Of a stretch of 64,000 bases of DNA, positions 4,283-53,950 are shown in pieces. A program made the translations under genes and the position numbers. A model generated the notes under the pieces. It did no database searches, was not told the origin of the DNA, and was given only the letters and a program-made list of their open reading frames with translations. Source of the stretch: Thermogutta terrifontis. Lineage in GTDB: Bacteria; Planctomycetota; Planctomycetia; Pirellulales; Thermoguttaceae. The stretch spans positions 806,001-870,000 of the forward strand of contig NZ_CP018477.1 in assembly GCF_002277955.1 (NCBI RefSeq). The letters are read 5' to 3'. Positions within the stretch are counted from its first letter, which is position 1. Every line of letters begins with the position of its first letter.

Positions 4283-5350
4283 TCAAGATGAGTTTTGGCA
4301 TGGGCGGTGCTCGCAGATGACGTGGCGAAGGATGCCCAGGGCCTCGTCCACATCTTGCGAGTTGACATCCAAATGAGTGACCGCCCGAATCCGCTGCGGT
4401 GCCGTGGGCAGCATCAGCACGCCGTGGTCTTTGAGAAGCTGGGAAAGCTGGGCTGCTGTACCCCATTCTGGTGCCACGTCGAAGAGGAGAATGTTGGTTT
4501 CCACCGGGATGGGCATGAGGGTCAGGAATGGGATTTCCATCAATCCCGCGGCGAGTCGTCGGGCATTGGCGTGGTCTTCGGCCAGTCGGTCGATGTGATG
4601 TTCCAGAGCGTAAAGCGCAGCCGCGGCAAGGACGCCTACCTGCCGCATGCCACCACCGAGCACCTTGCGATGGCGTCGCGCTTCGGCGATCAGGTCTTTG
4701 GGACCCGCAAGGGCCGAGCCAACCGGTGCCCCGAGGCCTTTGCTGAAACATACGTTGACCGTGTCAAAAAGTTGCGCCCACTCATGGAGGGGGATTCCTG
4801 TAGCCACCGAGGCATTCCACAGCCGTGCTCCATCCAGATGGAGGGCCAGATGGTTGCGGCGTGCCCAGCCCACCAGTGTTTCCACAAGCGAAAACGGCTG
4901 GACGCGACCGCCCCCACGATTATGAGTGTTTTCCAGGGTCAGCAACCGCGTACGCACAAAATGGACGTTTTGCGGGCGGATCAGTCCCTCCAGTTGCTCG
5001 GGCTGCATGAGACCCCAGTAGCCCTGAACAGGTCGAGCGGCGACCCCACAGATCTGCGCGTAACCTCCCTGTTCGTAGTTGTAAATATGGGAGTCCGCTT
5101 CACAGATCATCTCGTCGCCAGGTCGGCAGTGCAGCCGCACCGCGATGAGATTGGACATCGTGCCAGACGGCACAAAGAGGGCGGCTTCCTTGTGAAGTAG
5201 CTCCGCGACACGCTCCTCGAGTCGTTGGACGGTTGGGTCATCGCCCAGCACATCATCGCCGACCTCGGCCGATGCCATCGCCGCCCGCATCCCGGGAGTT
5301 GGTCGGGTGACAGTGTCACTGCGGAAATCGAGAATCCGCTCCGTCTTCAT
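4283..5350 (-). CDS. ltaE: Low-specificity L-threonine aldolase
   Basis: About 355 residues, the usual length. The PLP fold type I features are clear: the N-terminal [14 protein letters not shown], the substrate region DPTVQRLEE, the [10 protein letters not shown] motif, [10 protein letters not shown] and the PLP-lysine segment [12 protein letters not shown]. It cleaves L-threonine or allo-threonine to glycine and acetaldehyde in the cytoplasm. The ATG at 5350 (MKTERILDF) is preceded by GGGGAACG and fits the family start better than the longer frame. It lies 39 bp downstream of the RNase R gene on the same strand, and about 125 bp upstream of the sugar-transferase run. Confidence 0.93.
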
Positions 5351-47964: not shown

Positions 47965-49056
47965 TCACTGACCAACGGCGGCACGAAGCGGTTCGGCAGG
48001 GGGGTACTGGTGGCCATCTTCGGTGAAGCACCGCAGTTGCCTGGCCGACACGTAAACAGTATCCCCTTCCGCAAGTGCAAGTTGCGACAGGTGATGGGGA
48101 TCAATTTCGGCGAGGAAAAGTTCCCCCGATTGGGCCATCAGCCACAATTTCACCAGTCCTCCCGCCGTGTGAATTCGCTGAACCACGGCCGGGAAAGCGT
48201 GCTTATGAGGAATCGTGCTGAGGGCGAATTCGTGCGGTCGTACGAAGACCACCACCTCTTCTCCGGCCGACAGGGCCTCGGAGGTGCCAAATTCCACGCG
48301 GGAACCACGGCGAATCCCGCGAAACCTGTTCACGGTGCCGATGAATTCGGTGACAAACGCTGATTGCGGCTGATGATAAACTTCTTCCGGCGTGCCCACC
48401 TGCTCGATTCGGCCAGCGTTGAGGACGACCACACGGTCCGCGAGCTCCAGAGCCTCGTCCTGATCGTGGGTGACGAACACGCTTGTCAGACCGATCTCGT
48501 CATGCAATCCACGCAGCCAGGTGCGGAGTTGCCGACGAACCTTGGCATCCAGGGCTCCGAACGGTTCATCCAGGAGAAGTACCTGCGGGCGGATGGCCAG
48601 TGCCCGGGCCAGGGCCACCCGCTGACGCTGCCCACCCGACAGTTGATGCGGATACCGCTCGGCGAATGGCTCCAGTTGTACCAGCCGCAAAAGCTCCCGC
48701 ACTCGCGCATCGATGTCACCGGGAGAAAGCCGCAGCCGCCGCCGCTGAACGCGAAGTCCAAAAGCGATATTCTCGTAGACCGTCATGTGCCGAAACAGTG
48801 CGTAATGCTGGAATACAAACCCCACTCCCCGCTGGGACGCCGGCCGATAGGTGACGTCTTTACCATCGAACAGCAGACGGCCGGAGCCAGGGTCGGGTGC
48901 TTCCAGGCCGGCTATGATTCGCAGAAGTGTCGTCTTTCCCGAACCGGAAGGTCCCAGCAGTGCCACGAGTTCTCCCGCATGAATGGTCAGATTCACGCGA
49001 TCGAGAGCGCGAAATTTGCCGAAGGTTTTGGAGATTTCGATCACTTCGATGCGCAT
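47965..49056 (-). CDS. cysA: Sulfate/thiosulfate ABC transporter ATP-binding protein
   Basis: 363 residues. Walker [16 protein letters not shown]-loop [12 protein letters not shown], signature [15 protein letters not shown], Walker [12 protein letters not shown], and a C-terminal TOBE-like domain (~240-350). The signature and neighbours place it as CysA. ATP hydrolysis drives sulfate import through CysTW. The ATG at 49056 overlaps cysW by 16 bp and has GAGGAGG ten bases upstream. It is the last gene of the operon. Confidence 0.94.
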
Positions 49057-50021
49057 GGGAAAGACGCCTCCTCAAAAAGACAATCTTGCCCGCGGTTGAG
49101 CTTCCGATTGATGCGGTGTTGCCAGACGGTCTTCACGACCAGGGTCACCAGCCCTACTCCGGTGAGCAGCGAAGCAACGGCAAACGCGGCAGAGAACTGG
49201 TACTCGTTGTAAAGGAGTTCCACATACAGCGGCAGAGTCACAGTGAAACCGCGGATGTGTCCCGAAACGACCGAAACCGCACCGAATTCCCCGAGAGATC
49301 GTGCGGTGCACAGAATCACTCCGTAGAGGAGCGCCCAGCGAATCTTAGGCAGCGTGACGTGATAAAAGATCTGCCAGCCGTTGGCGCCAAGCAGTCGAGC
49401 GGCTTCTTCCTCCTCGCTCCCTTCGGTTTCCATCAGGGTCTTCACTTCCCTGACCACAAGCGGCAGGGTGACGAAGGCGGTTGCCAGAACAATACCCGGG
49501 AATGCGAAAATGACCCGAACACCCCAGCGTTCCAGAATCGCTCCCAACCACCCATGCTGCCCATAGACCAGAATGAGCAGCAACCCCACCACGACCGGCG
49601 AGATGGAAAGAGGCAAATCAATAAGGCTGATCAGCGCGTTGCGGCCGAAAAAGCGGTATTTGCTCAGGCACCACGCCGCGGACAGTCCAAACGCGGTATT
49701 GATGGCAACGCAGAGTGCGGTGACTGACAGGCTGAGCCGCACCGCCGCCAGGGCTTCCGGATTGCTGATTGCCGCACAGTAAACATGCCATCCCTGACGG
49801 AACGCCTCTGCAAAAACGACGACCAGAGGGAGCACAAGAAATACTCCAAGGATCAGCAGCGTGGTCAGAATGAGACCGAGACGCAAAAGAATCCCAACGG
49901 GCGAACTCCGTGTAAGTCCAGCATAGGGGTGCGATGGCTCGGCGCTGGCCGCCGTGAAACCATTGGTCGGCGAGGTGGATCGCGATGGAGCGAGGGAAAG
50001 ACACCTCAATGACTGTTTCAT
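49041..50021 (-). CDS. cysW: Sulfate ABC transporter permease CysW
   Basis: 326 residues, with a ~40-residue hydrophilic N-terminal extension and six predicted helices ([20 protein letters not shown] at the start). The EAA loop [20 protein letters not shown] and the C-terminal [17 protein letters not shown] are typical of CysW. It overlaps cysT by 4 bp (ATGA). It forms the membrane channel with CysT. Confidence 0.93.
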
Positions 50022-50854
50022 GCGACGCTCCCTTCCTGCCAGCGCAACTGCCAGTTGTGGAGAGCGTTTATGGTCACGAGAATGCCCAGGGATGCCAGCA
50101 GCATGATCGCTGCAATGACGGCCGCCCCGTGATAGTCGTACTGCTCAAGCTTGATGACGATGAGGAGTGGTGCAATCTCTGTGCGATGGGGAAGGTTGCC
50201 TGCGATGAAGATGATGGAGCCATACTCACCCACCGCCCGGGCAAACGCCAGAGACATGCCCGTGAGCAGCGCCGGTCGCAGAGAAGGAAAAGTCACCCGC
50301 CAGAATGTCACAATCGGTCCGGCGCCCAGGCTTGCCGCGGCCTCTTCCCAGTCCGAAGGAAGATCGGCAATGGCAGGTTGAAGGGTTCTCACCACGAATG
50401 GCAACCCAATATAGATCATGGCGATTAGAATTCCCCAGCGCGTGTAGGCCAGGGAAAAGCCCCACTGCTCCGTGATCGCTCCCAGCCATGAGCCGGGAGC
50501 GAAAAGGGTTGTCAGGGCGATTCCAGAAACGGCTGTGGGCAGGGCAAAGGGTAAATCAACGAGTGCATCGAGGAAGCCTCGGCCGGGGAATGTATATCGT
50601 ACAAGAACCCACGCGACGACAAACCCGAGCACCGCGTCCACCATCGCGGCGGCCAGGGCAGAGCCAAGGCTCAGACGGATGGCCGACCAAACCCGCGGTT
50701 CCCACAGGGTGCTCCAGCCGGTTCCGCTGGTCAGAAACGTCGTGAAGGCCGCCAGGGGCAGGATGACCATCGCGCCGAGGTAGCTCACGGTGATCCCCAG
50801 CGTGAGGCCAAAGCCCGGCAACGTCGGATGTCTCTCCCGTACTCTAAAAGGCAC
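50018..50854 (-). CDS. cysT: Sulfate ABC transporter permease CysT
   Basis: About 278 residues with six helices. FALPTAVSGIALTTLF, the EAA loop DWEEAAASLGAGPIVTFWRV and AVGEYGSIIFIAGN match CysT (CysU). The start is not ATG: GTG at 50854 has GGAGGAG seven bases upstream; TTG at 50857 is the alternative. It starts only 20 bp after the binding-protein stop. Confidence 0.93.
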   Translation of the reverse strand: MPFRVRERHPTLPGFGLTLGITVSYLGAMVILPLAAFTTFLTSGTGWSTLWEPRVWSAIRLSLGSALAAAMVDAVLGFVVAWVLVRYTFPGRGFLDALVDLPFALPTAVSGIALTTLFAPGSWLGAITEQWGFSLAYTRWGILIAMIYIGLPFVVRTLQPAIADLPSDWEEAAASLGAGPIVTFWRVTFPSLRPALLTGMSLAFARAVGEYGSIIFIAGNLPHRTEIAPLLIVIKLEQYDYHGAAVIAAIMLLASLGILVTINALHNWQLRWQEGSVA

Positions 50855-50874
50855 CAAAAATCTCCTCCACCAAA

Positions 50875-51993
50875 TCAGTGCGAAACCGAGGTTTGCGCTT
50901 CCATAATGCGGTCGAATGTACCACCGTCGTCGAAGTGTTCCTTTTGGGCCTTTGCCCAGCCCCCAAACACGTCGTCCACGGTGAACATCTCCACGGGGCG
51001 AAAGACGTCTGCAAATTCTTGGGCTACCGTGGGATCCACCGGCCGATAGTAGTGACGCCCAATGATCCGCTGGGCCTCGGGCGTGTAGAGGAATTGCAAA
51101 TAGGCCTCCGCCACGGCACGCGTTCCCCTCCTGTCCACAACGCCATCGACAACGGCCACGGGGGGCTCGGCAAGAATGGTCACGGAAGGCACCACCAGTT
51201 CGACGTTTTCCCCACCCACTTCCCGGGTGGCCAGGAGGGCCTCGTTTTCCCAGGCGATGAGCACGTCGCCAATTCCCCGCTGAATGAAGGTGTTGGTGGC
51301 CCCGCGTGCCCCCGTGTCCATCACCTTCACCCGCGAGAAAATCGCCCGCACAAACTCAAACGCCTTTTCCTGGGCCTTTTGGACCTCGGGAGACGAGGCG
51401 TTTTTCACTTTGGAGAGATCCCCTAACTCGCGTTTGAGGGCATATCCCCAGGCTGCCAGATAATTCCATCGTGCCCCGCCGGAAGTCTTTGGATTGGGAG
51501 TCACCACGTCGACGTCGGGCCTGGTGAGGTCCTCCCAATCCTGGATGTTTTTGGGATTACCTTTTCGGACAAGGAAAACAATGGTGGAGACGTACGGGCA
51601 ACTGCGATGGGGCAAACGCTCCTGCCAATTCGCGGCGATGAGGCCCGTTCGGGCAGCGATGACGTCGATATCGTATGCGAGGGCCAGGGTCACCACGTCA
51701 GCCTGGAGGCCGTCGATCACCGCTCGTGCCTGCTTTCCGGAACCACCGTGGGACTGACGGATCTCGACCTGCTGACCAGTTTTGGCCAGCCAATATTGGG
51801 CAAATGAAGCGTTGATCTCTCTGTAAAGCTCTCGAGTAGGGTCGTAAGAGACGTTAAGCAGCACGAGGCGGGAGTCTGACCTGCCGCACCCGCTCACCGT
51901 TGCTGCGGCGCAAAGGGCCACCAGCGCGAAGGCCGCCAGGCATGCTCTCCAGTGGATAGGAAAACGCAGCTTTGCATTTGTCGTGGTGGGCAT
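50875..51993 (-). CDS. Sulfate-binding lipoprotein (Sbp/CysP family)
   Basis: About 372 residues. A signal peptide ends in the lipobox TVSGC. The mature protein has the Sbp pattern: [45 protein letters not shown], and [20 protein letters not shown]. It binds sulfate, or possibly thiosulfate, outside the membrane. The ATG at 51993 gives a proper signal peptide, whereas the 54 residues upstream in frame cross the predicted promoter. It is the first gene of sbp-cysT-cysW-cysA. Confidence 0.93.
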
Positions 51994-52118
51994 GAGTGGT
52001 GAAACTCCACGTTGGACGGCGTTGTCATTTGAGATTGGCCAATCGCCACGCGCGGTGAACCGACAGCCGACGGCGATTCCGCACATGCGCGGGCCGTAGG
52101 CCAAAGGTGAAGGCGTCA

Positions 52119-52134
52119 CGCACGATCCATGCCA
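52119..52134 (-). promoter_or_regulatory. Candidate sigma-54 promoter of the sulfate importer operon
   Basis: On the minus strand TGGCATGGATCGTGCG has the GG-N10-GC spacing of -24/-12 promoters; the -24 part matches TGGCAC in five of six, and the -12 part is weaker. Transcription would start near 52107, giving a ~115-nt leader before the ATG at 51993. A sigma-70-like alternative is TTGACC/TATAGT (52210-52215 and 52185-52190, 19-bp spacer). Confidence 0.5.
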
Positions 52135-52220
52135 GTGGCGAATAGCGCGTCGCAAGTGACGCCTTAGTAAGGAGATATGACTTTACTATATCTTTGGCCG
52201 GGTTTTCAGGGTCAATCAAT

Positions 52221-52236
52221 CCGTGAAATATAACGG
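52221..52236. promoter_or_regulatory. 16-bp palindromic operator, copy 1
   Basis: CCGTGAAATATAACGG. Half-sites follow CCGTKAWA. Its centre is ~120 bp upstream of the predicted sigma-54 start of the sulfate operon. Confidence 0.68.
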
Positions 52237-52262
52237 GGTGGACTGGATTCGAAGGCGCAGAA

Positions 52263-52278
52263 CCGTTACATTTAACGG
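52263..52278. promoter_or_regulatory. 16-bp palindromic operator, copy 2
   Basis: CCGTTACATTTAACGG, 42 bp (four helical turns) from copy 1. Confidence 0.68.
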
Positions 52279-52342
52279 AAAATCTCTGCCATTGTTCTTC
52301 GACGAAGAATCAACGCGAAATATCCTCGCCGCTTGTTCAAAA

Positions 52343-52358
52343 CCGTTAAATATCACGG
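52343..52358. promoter_or_regulatory. 16-bp palindromic operator, copy 3
   Basis: CCGTTAAATATCACGG, 80 bp from copy 2 and 33 bp before the regulator's ATG, so it could also control the regulator gene. Confidence 0.68.
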
Positions 52359-52390
52359 AAATCTCGCGCAGGGGTTGGCAAATACTGCTT

Positions 52391-53950
52391 ATGATGGATG
52401 AGAACACGCTCCTTGTTGAAGTCTGGCGGGAAGCCTGCCGCCATATCGAGATCGCCGAATCGGTGGCGGGAATCGCGACAGTCCTCAAAAACCGCATCCC
52501 GTTTCAGGTCATGGTGGTCCGCCGGTTGAAACCGTCCGACTCGGTTCTTGAGACCGTCGCCGTCGCGCCGACCGTTCCCCCGTGGTTGGGGCAGAGAGTA
52601 ACCCCCCTTTCGCGTGCTGCACTCTCCCGTCTTATGCAGTGGTGTTTAGGGCGGGACGTGTTGAAAATGCCGCCCAATCGGCCAGATCTTTGCGGCGTGG
52701 ATTTGGAAAGCTTGCTTGGGAACGCTCCCGCGGCTGTCCTGGTCGGCGGCTTGGTCTCGGACGGGAAGGCGACGGGGATTGCGTTGCTGGTGGAAAGAGA
52801 AGATGGGCCACCGTTTACGACCTCTCACGTTCAACTCTTTCACGAGGTTCTGGAGCCGTTGGCCGTCAGCCTGGAGAACGATGCCCGAGTCCGCGAGTTG
52901 GCCGTCCTTCGCGAAGCCGCCGAAGCCGAGCGGCAGTCCCTTCTGGCGCGTCTGGGTCGAAAGTCGCTGGGCGACACCATTGTGGGAGCAGACGGTGGCC
53001 TCAAGCACGTCATGGAACGCGTGGAATTGGTGGCTCGATCGGATGTGCCGGTGCTTTTGCTGGGAGAAACGGGTACCGGAAAGGAGCTTATCGCGCGGAC
53101 GATCCATCTTCGCTCTCCTCGGGCGAAGGCGCCCTTTCTTCGCGTAAATTGCGGCGCGATCCCTCCCGAACTGGTGGACTCCCAGCTCTTCGGTCACGAA
53201 AAGGGAAGTTTCACGGGGGCGGTGGAAACGCATCAGGGGTGGTTTGAGAGGGCGGATGGAGGCACGCTTTTTTTGGACGAAATTGGAGAACTTCCCCTGG
53301 ACGCCCAGGTGCGTCTTCTGCAGGTTCTTCAGGACGGAACGTTTGAGCGCGTTGGTGGCCGACATCCCATCACCGTGGACGTGCGGATCATCGCCGCCAC
53401 GCATCGGAACCTGCAGGAGATGGTGCGGGCGGGTCGGTTTCGCGAAGATCTGTGGTACCGTCTGGCGGTTTTTCCGATCTTTCTCCCGCCGCTCCGCGAC
53501 CGGCCCGAGGATATCCCGGCGCTTGCCCGGCATTTTGCCGAACGGGCGGCGGTGCGGTTCAATTTGCCGCTCCAACTGCCCACTGAGGAAGACATTCGTC
53601 TTCTTATGAGCTACGACTGGCCGGGAAACATTCGGGAGCTGGCGGCGGTCATTGATCGCGCGGCCATTTTGGGCGACGGCCGGGGCCTGCAGGTAGCCAA
53701 AGCCCTGGGAATCGGCACCTCGCCCGGTGCCACGGATCACCAGAAGGAGAATTTCCAGGACGAGGCCTTTCCCACACTGGAGGAAGTCAATCGTCGCCAC
53801 ATTGAAGAAGCCCTTCGGCGGTGCGCCGGGAGAATCGAGGGGCCCAAAGGGGCGGCGGCTTTACTGGGGATCAATCCCCACACGTTGCGCTCCAGAATGC
53901 GCAAACTGGGCATTCGATGGCAAGTCTACCGCAGGAAGTCTGGGGCGTGA
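52391..53950 (+). CDS. Sigma-54-dependent activator, GAF-AAA-Fis type
   Basis: About 519 residues. The N-terminal ~190 residues look like a GAF sensor, with no receiver domain. The AAA+ domain has Walker [16 protein letters not shown], the sigma-54 contact loop GSFTGA, Walker [13 protein letters not shown] and the sensor region DVRIIAATHRNLQEM. The C-terminal Fis-type helix-turn-helix is GAAALLGINPHTLRSRMRKL. The start at 52391 (or 52394) is favoured because the longer frame runs through the three palindromes. It is divergent from the sulfate importer operon and is the natural candidate to control it; the signal sensed is unknown. Confidence 0.92.
   Translation: MMDENTLLVEVWREACRHIEIAESVAGIATVLKNRIPFQVMVVRRLKPSDSVLETVAVAPTVPPWLGQRVTPLSRAALSRLMQWCLGRDVLKMPPNRPDLCGVDLESLLGNAPAAVLVGGLVSDGKATGIALLVEREDGPPFTTSHVQLFHEVLEPLAVSLENDARVRELAVLREAAEAERQSLLARLGRKSLGDTIVGADGGLKHVMERVELVARSDVPVLLLGETGTGKELIARTIHLRSPRAKAPFLRVNCGAIPPELVDSQLFGHEKGSFTGAVETHQGWFERADGGTLFLDEIGELPLDAQVRLLQVLQDGTFERVGGRHPITVDVRIIAATHRNLQEMVRAGRFREDLWYRLAVFPIFLPPLRDRPEDIPALARHFAERAAVRFNLPLQLPTEEDIRLLMSYDWPGNIRELAAVIDRAAILGDGRGLQVAKALGIGTSPGATDHQKENFQDEAFPTLEEVNRRHIEEALRRCAGRIEGPKGAAALLGINPHTLRSRMRKLGIRWQVYRRKSGA

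Follow-up and report, generated by a model that had tools for sequence, protein, structure and literature searches.

The window, meaning the whole 64,000-nucleotide stretch of Thermogutta terrifontis DNA analyzed here, carries the genes sbp-cysTWA (47965-51993, minus strand) divergent from the gene of a sigma-54-dependent activator (52391-53950, plus strand). The features of the locus are as follows.

47965-49056, minus strand: cysA, sulfate transporter ATPase (TIGR00968, 378.7 bits, cut-off 342.75)
49041-50021, minus strand: cysW, sulfate permease (TIGR02140, 347.3 bits, cut-off 329.1)
50018-50857, minus strand: cysT, sulfate permease (TIGR02139, 350.3 bits, cut-off 246.1)
50875-51993, minus strand: sbp, sulfate ABC transporter substrate-binding protein (TIGR00971, 454.2 bits, cut-off 155.5)
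52119-52134, minus strand: candidate -24/-12 (sigma-54) element TGGCATGGATCGTGCG (matrix score 11.4, window excluded from training; runner-up in the gap 0.2)
52221-52236, no strand: palindrome 1, CCGTGAAATATAACGG, predicted activator site (0 mismatches to CCGTKAWATWTMACGG; matrix 21.0; center about -120)
52263-52278, no strand: palindrome 2, CCGTTACATTTAACGG, predicted activator site (1 mismatch to CCGTKAWATWTMACGG; matrix 19.2; center about -162)
52343-52358, no strand: palindrome 3, CCGTTAAATATCACGG, predicted activator site (0 mismatches to CCGTKAWATWTMACGG; matrix 21.0; center about -242)
52391-53950, plus strand: sigma-54-dependent activator with GAF-fold, AAA+ and Fis-type HTH domains (PF00158, PF02954, alignment, and the GAF fold of residues 1-175)

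An earlier note on this DNA had read the minus-strand genes as a sulfate importer operon, and family searches bore this out: the binding protein, the two permeases and the ATPase of an Sbp/CysTWA importer each matched a sulfate-specific NCBIfam model over its cut-off. Against the CysA equivalog NF008105, the window cysA scored below the cut-off (394.5 of 502). The start of sbp was best placed at the ATG at 51993, which gives a lipoprotein-like signal peptide as judged by eye, and that of the activator at the ATG at 52391 or 52394.

The AAA+ domain of the activator matched PF00158 with 236 bits, which places the protein among the sigma-54-dependent activators (bacterial enhancer-binding proteins), and its C terminus carries a Fis-type HTH (PF02954, 34.2 bits, cut-off 22). 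The GAFTGA loop is the rule for sigma-54 activators. In the window protein this loop reads GSFTGA and the Walker B motif GTLFLDE; across 36 aligned activators the loop was GSFTGA in 25, GAFTGA in 10 and GAFTSA in 1, so that G[SA]FTGA is found in 35 of 36, and Walker A is kept. Sigma-54 itself is encoded in the genome, with one match for rpoN (PF04552, 208.7 bits). A Pfam search of the activator at 1e-3 gave no GAF match. The structure model of residues 1-175 (mean pLDDT 94.4) had GAF domains, GAF-containing photoreceptors and phytochromes as its listed neighbors, including 3k2n, a domain of a Chlorobium sigma-54 regulator (TM 0.75), and the GAF-fold domain corresponds to about residues 1-165. 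Only four columns of the N-terminal domain alignment were invariant across 33 sequences. The description of the protein as a GAF-AAA-Fis activator therefore holds, for AAA+ and Fis by Pfam and for GAF by fold, not by Pfam. Orthology with NifA, NorR or FhlA was not obtained, as the 25 families listed, of 28, all scored below their equivalog cut-offs.

Three 16-bp palindromes had been reported in the gap between sbp and the activator gene. They were found at 52221, 52263 and 52343, the third some 40 bp ahead of the activator ATG. By mismatch their count is only mildly unusual: CCGTKAWATWTMACGG at up to 3 mismatches has 4 matches, compared with a shuffle mean of 1.36, and 4 of 100 shuffles reach that count. 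Their quality and clustering do stand out, the next best place in the 64-kb window for a palindrome matrix trained without the window scoring 12.5. In the 4.81-Mb genome, CCRTNAWATWTNAYGG at no more than one mismatch has 8 sites (reversed control, 5), namely the three window palindromes and five others. For sites at up to one mismatch, a Thermogutta regulon extending beyond the sbp locus was rejected, since all five of these other sites lie inside ORFs.

The minus-strand GG-N10-GC element noted earlier is likewise present, as TGGCATGGATCGTGCG at 52134-52119, with the boxes TGGCAT and GTGC; its -12 box departs from the consensus, having GTGC in place of TTGC. From its sequence, sbp transcription would start near 52109. 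Recomputed from this start, the palindrome centers fall at -120, -162 and -242, in agreement with the distances of about -120, -163 and -243 given before, and 42 bp separate copies 1 and 2, matching the claimed four helical turns (4.0), with 80 bp between copies 2 and 3. The window promoter is weak (among 29 divergent gaps only L071 scores lower than 11.4), and TGGCAYN6TGC alone is not significant, with 2 occurrences in the window for 1.47 expected in 64 kb; the second overlaps coding ORFs. For this core pattern it is position, not rarity, that counts as evidence. Elsewhere in the window, a -24/-12-like match at 4296-4312 (16.3) lies in coding sequence, within a gene that by eye resembles an aldolase; it was dropped because it overlaps coding ORFs, and is probably due to chance. 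A search for a -24/-12 element oriented toward the activator was also dropped, as it only matched the activator's own coding N terminus.

Given the weak -12 box and the expected frequency of the core pattern, sbp-cysTWA might be transcribed from a sigma-70-type promoter (TTGACC-TATAGT), the -24/-12 match being there by chance. We consider this very unlikely. The -24/-12 element is the sole good match in the gap (11.4 versus 0.2), it lies at the usual enhancer distance from the palindromes, and 26 of the 28 other divergent gaps contain a strong one, whereas the TTGACC and TATAGT boxes are separated by 19 bp as measured by eye. A sigma-70 scan of 51900-52450 with spacers of 16-18 bp gave no site, and a sigma-70 promoter for sbp was rejected on that result.

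We then considered the conservation of both elements within the order. Forty-five activator loci were examined and four lacking the activator N terminus were dropped, leaving 41 upstream regions, the window included. A palindromic motif search of these regions, seeded by words in the sequences, gave CCgTnAtATaTnAcGG as its best motif at width 16, and at width 17 it yielded tgGCAangncntTGCca, a mirrored form of the -24/-12 element. The palindrome matrix, retrained without the window from a typed consensus, found 106 sites above 8 in 40 regions, compared with 1 and 1 in two controls. On 39 real regions, a set without the window and one duplicate, its likelihood score was 414.9, versus 96-111 in 12 dinucleotide-shuffled sets, and no palindrome above 11 was found in 58 kb of activator coding sequence. 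All but one of the 41 loci have palindromes upstream of the activator, whether or not sbp is present. The 29 divergent gaps include the window and two loci of one genus (L017 and L073). At least one palindrome above 11 is present in 28 of them and two or more in 24, such that the palindromes are kept where activator and operon are both conserved, their absence from such loci being what the earlier note had named as a refutation. For the -24/-12 element, a directional matrix was started from the established consensus and trained on loci other than the window; it arrived at tGGCACgncnnTTGCtt and scored above 13 in 26 of the 29 gaps, the exceptions being L071, L072 and the window; on one strand of the 58 kb of activator coding sequence, two such matches occur by chance. 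L072 has no palindrome above 11, and the promoters of L071 and L072 are weak. Since all 29 gaps except that of the window were used in training the matrices, the gap counts only describe a pattern. Independent tests of it come from the window itself, the shuffled sequences, a negative control, operons detached from the activator and genomes beyond the order.

The negative control consisted of 16 readable sbp loci from 15 genomes without the activator, L107 being omitted because its contig starts inside sbp, and L215 offering only 365 bp upstream. None of these loci has a palindrome above 11 or a -24/-12 element above 13, the nearest misses being one palindrome at 10.9 and one promoter match at 12.2. 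Together with the -24/-12 elements in 26 of 29 gaps, the absence of both elements from the activator-less loci supports the proposal that the operon is apparently under sigma-54 control through the palindromes.

The geometry is also largely preserved. Palindromes are often centered near -106, -129 and -150, and in 23 of the 28 loci having one, the nearest falls between -90 and -135, with L030, L046, L064, L068 and L071 as exceptions. L071, with its nearest site at -235, and L072, without a site, are outside the distance table, and at L068 and L086 the best promoter match has its palindromes on the downstream side. The spacings of 42 and 80 bp in the window are wider than the usual 20-24 bp.

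Because the palindrome array is close to the activator start codon in most genomes, autoregulation is also suggested; the nearest site is centered within about 15-60 bp of that codon in most orthologues. The palindromes could thus serve mainly for autoregulation of the activator, with sbp-cysTWA transcribed from another promoter. We give this reading only a slim chance: the distance from the nearest site to the sbp -24/-12 element is held within a narrow range (90-135 bp in 23 of 28), the sigma-70 scan found no site for sbp, and where the activator is encoded elsewhere in the genome, palindromes nevertheless precede sbp. The latter point comes from five genomes in which six sbp loci lie away from the activator. 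Each of the six (6/6) is preceded, within 1.5 kb, by two or more palindromes above 11, nearly 1 kb upstream of sbp in the case of L085, and a -24/-12 element above 13 was found at two of the six. The stretch next to sbp holds no palindrome at the sbp loci L093 and L094.

Alternatively, another regulator, such as a sulfur repressor, might use the palindromes as its operators, with the neighboring activator acting elsewhere. They are sites predicted from sequence, inverted repeats are common as operators, and a single site above 15 occurs in the loci of 5 of the 80 outside relatives kept, from at least 583 matches listed. Nevertheless, we regard this as highly improbable, since the palindromes stand upstream of the activator in nearly all loci of the order irrespective of sbp, no site above 11 was found upstream of the 16 readable activator-less sbp loci, and an enhancer-like distance to the -24/-12 element is unexpected for a repressor.

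Activator orthologues were identified in 45 of 146 genomes of the order, Thermogutta terrifontis included; 43 matched at E 1e-130 or better, two (G126 and G070) are partial with values of about 1e-102, and matches from 1.6e-93 onward were taken as paralogues. sbp is present in 41 of the 45 genomes with the activator versus 16 of the 101 without it (Fisher 1e-18, a value not corrected for relatedness, which overstates independence because the genomes are related). Partial sbp matches, at 2.8e-4 in three genomes and 4.1e-4 in G130, were not counted. No sbp was detected in four activator genomes, G130, G098, G053 and G070. In 36 of the 41, sbp adjoins the activator (within about 2.5 kb), and in G072, G054, G122, G017 and G126 it is absent from the stretches read around the activator. 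G114, the only other sampled genome of the window's genus, has neither the orthologue nor sbp. Two copies of the divergent activator/sbp pair, L066 (contig C194) and L067 (contig C49), were observed in G090, a genome that is 89% complete and 7% contaminated.

The circuit is wider than sulfate import in other genomes. In G130 and G098, the activator faces a TauE/SafE transporter gene, with palindromes between the two; the -24/-12 element before TauE scores 16.3 in L036, where the nearest palindrome is at the usual distance (about 120 bp), and 12.3 before the TauE/SafE gene of L049. In G053, the facing gene is serine-dehydratase-like. A sample of 392 genomes from across the phylum added fourteen orthologues outside the order, and their neighborhoods hold sbp (7), cysK (2, both also with sbp), cysC (2), a cysteine-dioxygenase-type gene (1) and an SsuA-like binding protein below the cut-off (1), such sulfur genes being present in 11 of the 14. 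The other three have nearby only an ABC ATPase without an assigned family (L232 and L236) or a DUF1559 gene (L229). Palindromes above 11 occur near the activator in 10 of the 14, with none in the other 4, and promoters are uneven (cysK, 16.4 in L235 and 7.3 in L230; cysC, 10.8 in L231 and L233). Near the 80 loci of the best outside relatives that were kept, of at least 583 matches listed, no Sbp/CysTWA match was found at 1e-10; records close to the window's genome may be missing from this set.

A number of further observations were made along the way. The cysteine-dioxygenase-type gene beside the activator in G476 (L239:4318-4956) is preceded by a -24/-12 element of 17.2 and palindromes, hinting at cysteine oxidation as a target. 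Palindromes with a -24/-12 element also precede DUF1559 pilin-like genes in G126 (L114:1501-3002 and L119:131-1529) and G348 (L202:3075-4389), as if surface proteins of two distant planctomycetes were in the same sulfur circuit. In G042 (L109:592-1516), two strong palindromes and a -24/-12 element (13.0) face a Trans_reg_C (OmpR-type) gene, possibly a second regulator in the circuit. Sites of the palindrome matrix were also seen just beyond other activators of the class in Geobacter UBA6802 (L131:4143, 20.9) and Hydrogenedentota (L128:4174, 16.9); with such matches outside Planctomycetota, the motif may be common to a wider branch.

Computation has shown the parts, their joint conservation, the geometry, and the lack of these elements at loci where the activator is missing. 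The best reading of these results is that the activator is a sulfur-assimilation regulator with sulfate import as its main target. From these observations we infer that, very probably, the sigma-54-dependent activator binds the palindromes and opens the sbp-cysTWA promoter when sulfur is short. Dimers of the Fis-type HTH would bind the palindromes, and the central AAA+ domains would assemble into a ring that reaches sigma-54 RNA polymerase at 52119-52134 by DNA looping. ATP hydrolysis would then remodel the polymerase and open the promoter, making transcription of the operon sigma-54 dependent. The trigger would be sulfur shortage, so that the operon would be induced by sulfur limitation, and the GAF-fold N terminus probably reads the sulfur signal directly, as a ligand sensor. 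Lying close to the activator start, palindrome 3 may have an additional role in autoregulation.

Sulfate import is usually described as being under the control of LysR-type CysB or of repressors. The CysB systems of enterobacteria and pseudomonads share their substrate and operon content with the Thermogutta locus, but CysB has a LysR fold and acts at a sigma-70 promoter, in contrast with the AAA+ activator and -24/-12 promoter found here. NifA/NorR/FhlA-type activators have the same sensor-AAA+-Fis layout and palindromic upstream sites as the Thermogutta protein, although their regulon and palindrome differ from those of Thermogutta, and the window activator scores below the cut-offs of NifA (337.7 of 528.85) and NorR (321.8 of 476). 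In P. aeruginosa, cysAWT is reported to be under CysB control (PMC12581299). A functional likeness, that of a sigma-54-dependent activator tied to sulfur scavenging, exists with Pseudomonas SfnR, described as an activator of sulfone use (Endoh 2003, 2005; Habe 2007; via PMC8234197). SfnR has organosulfur targets and is itself regulated by CysB (Endoh 2003), whereas the Thermogutta activator is associated with an inorganic sulfate importer. In Desulfovibrio, nine sigma-54-dependent operons with TSUP or putative sulfate-export transporters have been reported, some of them co-regulated with lactate genes (PMC4641369), and matrix-based predictions of sigma-54 targets in many phyla, Planctomycetia included, comprise a sulfite reductase in Aquificia (PMC12316311). 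The accessible portions of these two surveys note no sigma-54-controlled Sbp-CysTWA importer or sulfur-assimilation activator, and the word "sulfate" has 0 occurrences in the latter. A literature search, with most subscription journals outside its coverage, returned no description of sigma-54-controlled sulfate import or of planctomycete sulfur regulation. The new part would be inorganic sulfate import as a target, the regulator class being already known.

It may be that the activator is the Planctomycetota sulfur counterpart of NtrC, an old, sigma-54-dependent and GAF-sensing regulator in the place of CysB. Such a regulator would trade targets between lineages (sbp-cysTWA, TauE, cysK, cysC, perhaps also sulfonate import and cysteine dioxygenase) and, in certain genomes, command DUF1559 pilin-like surface proteins; we hold the chances of this broader picture to be about even. 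If the sigma-54-dependent control of sbp-cysTWA is true, nutrient control by sigma-54 would extend to inorganic sulfur in Planctomycetota. The regulon motif, promoter geometry and candidate sensor domain described here can be tested in many genomes.
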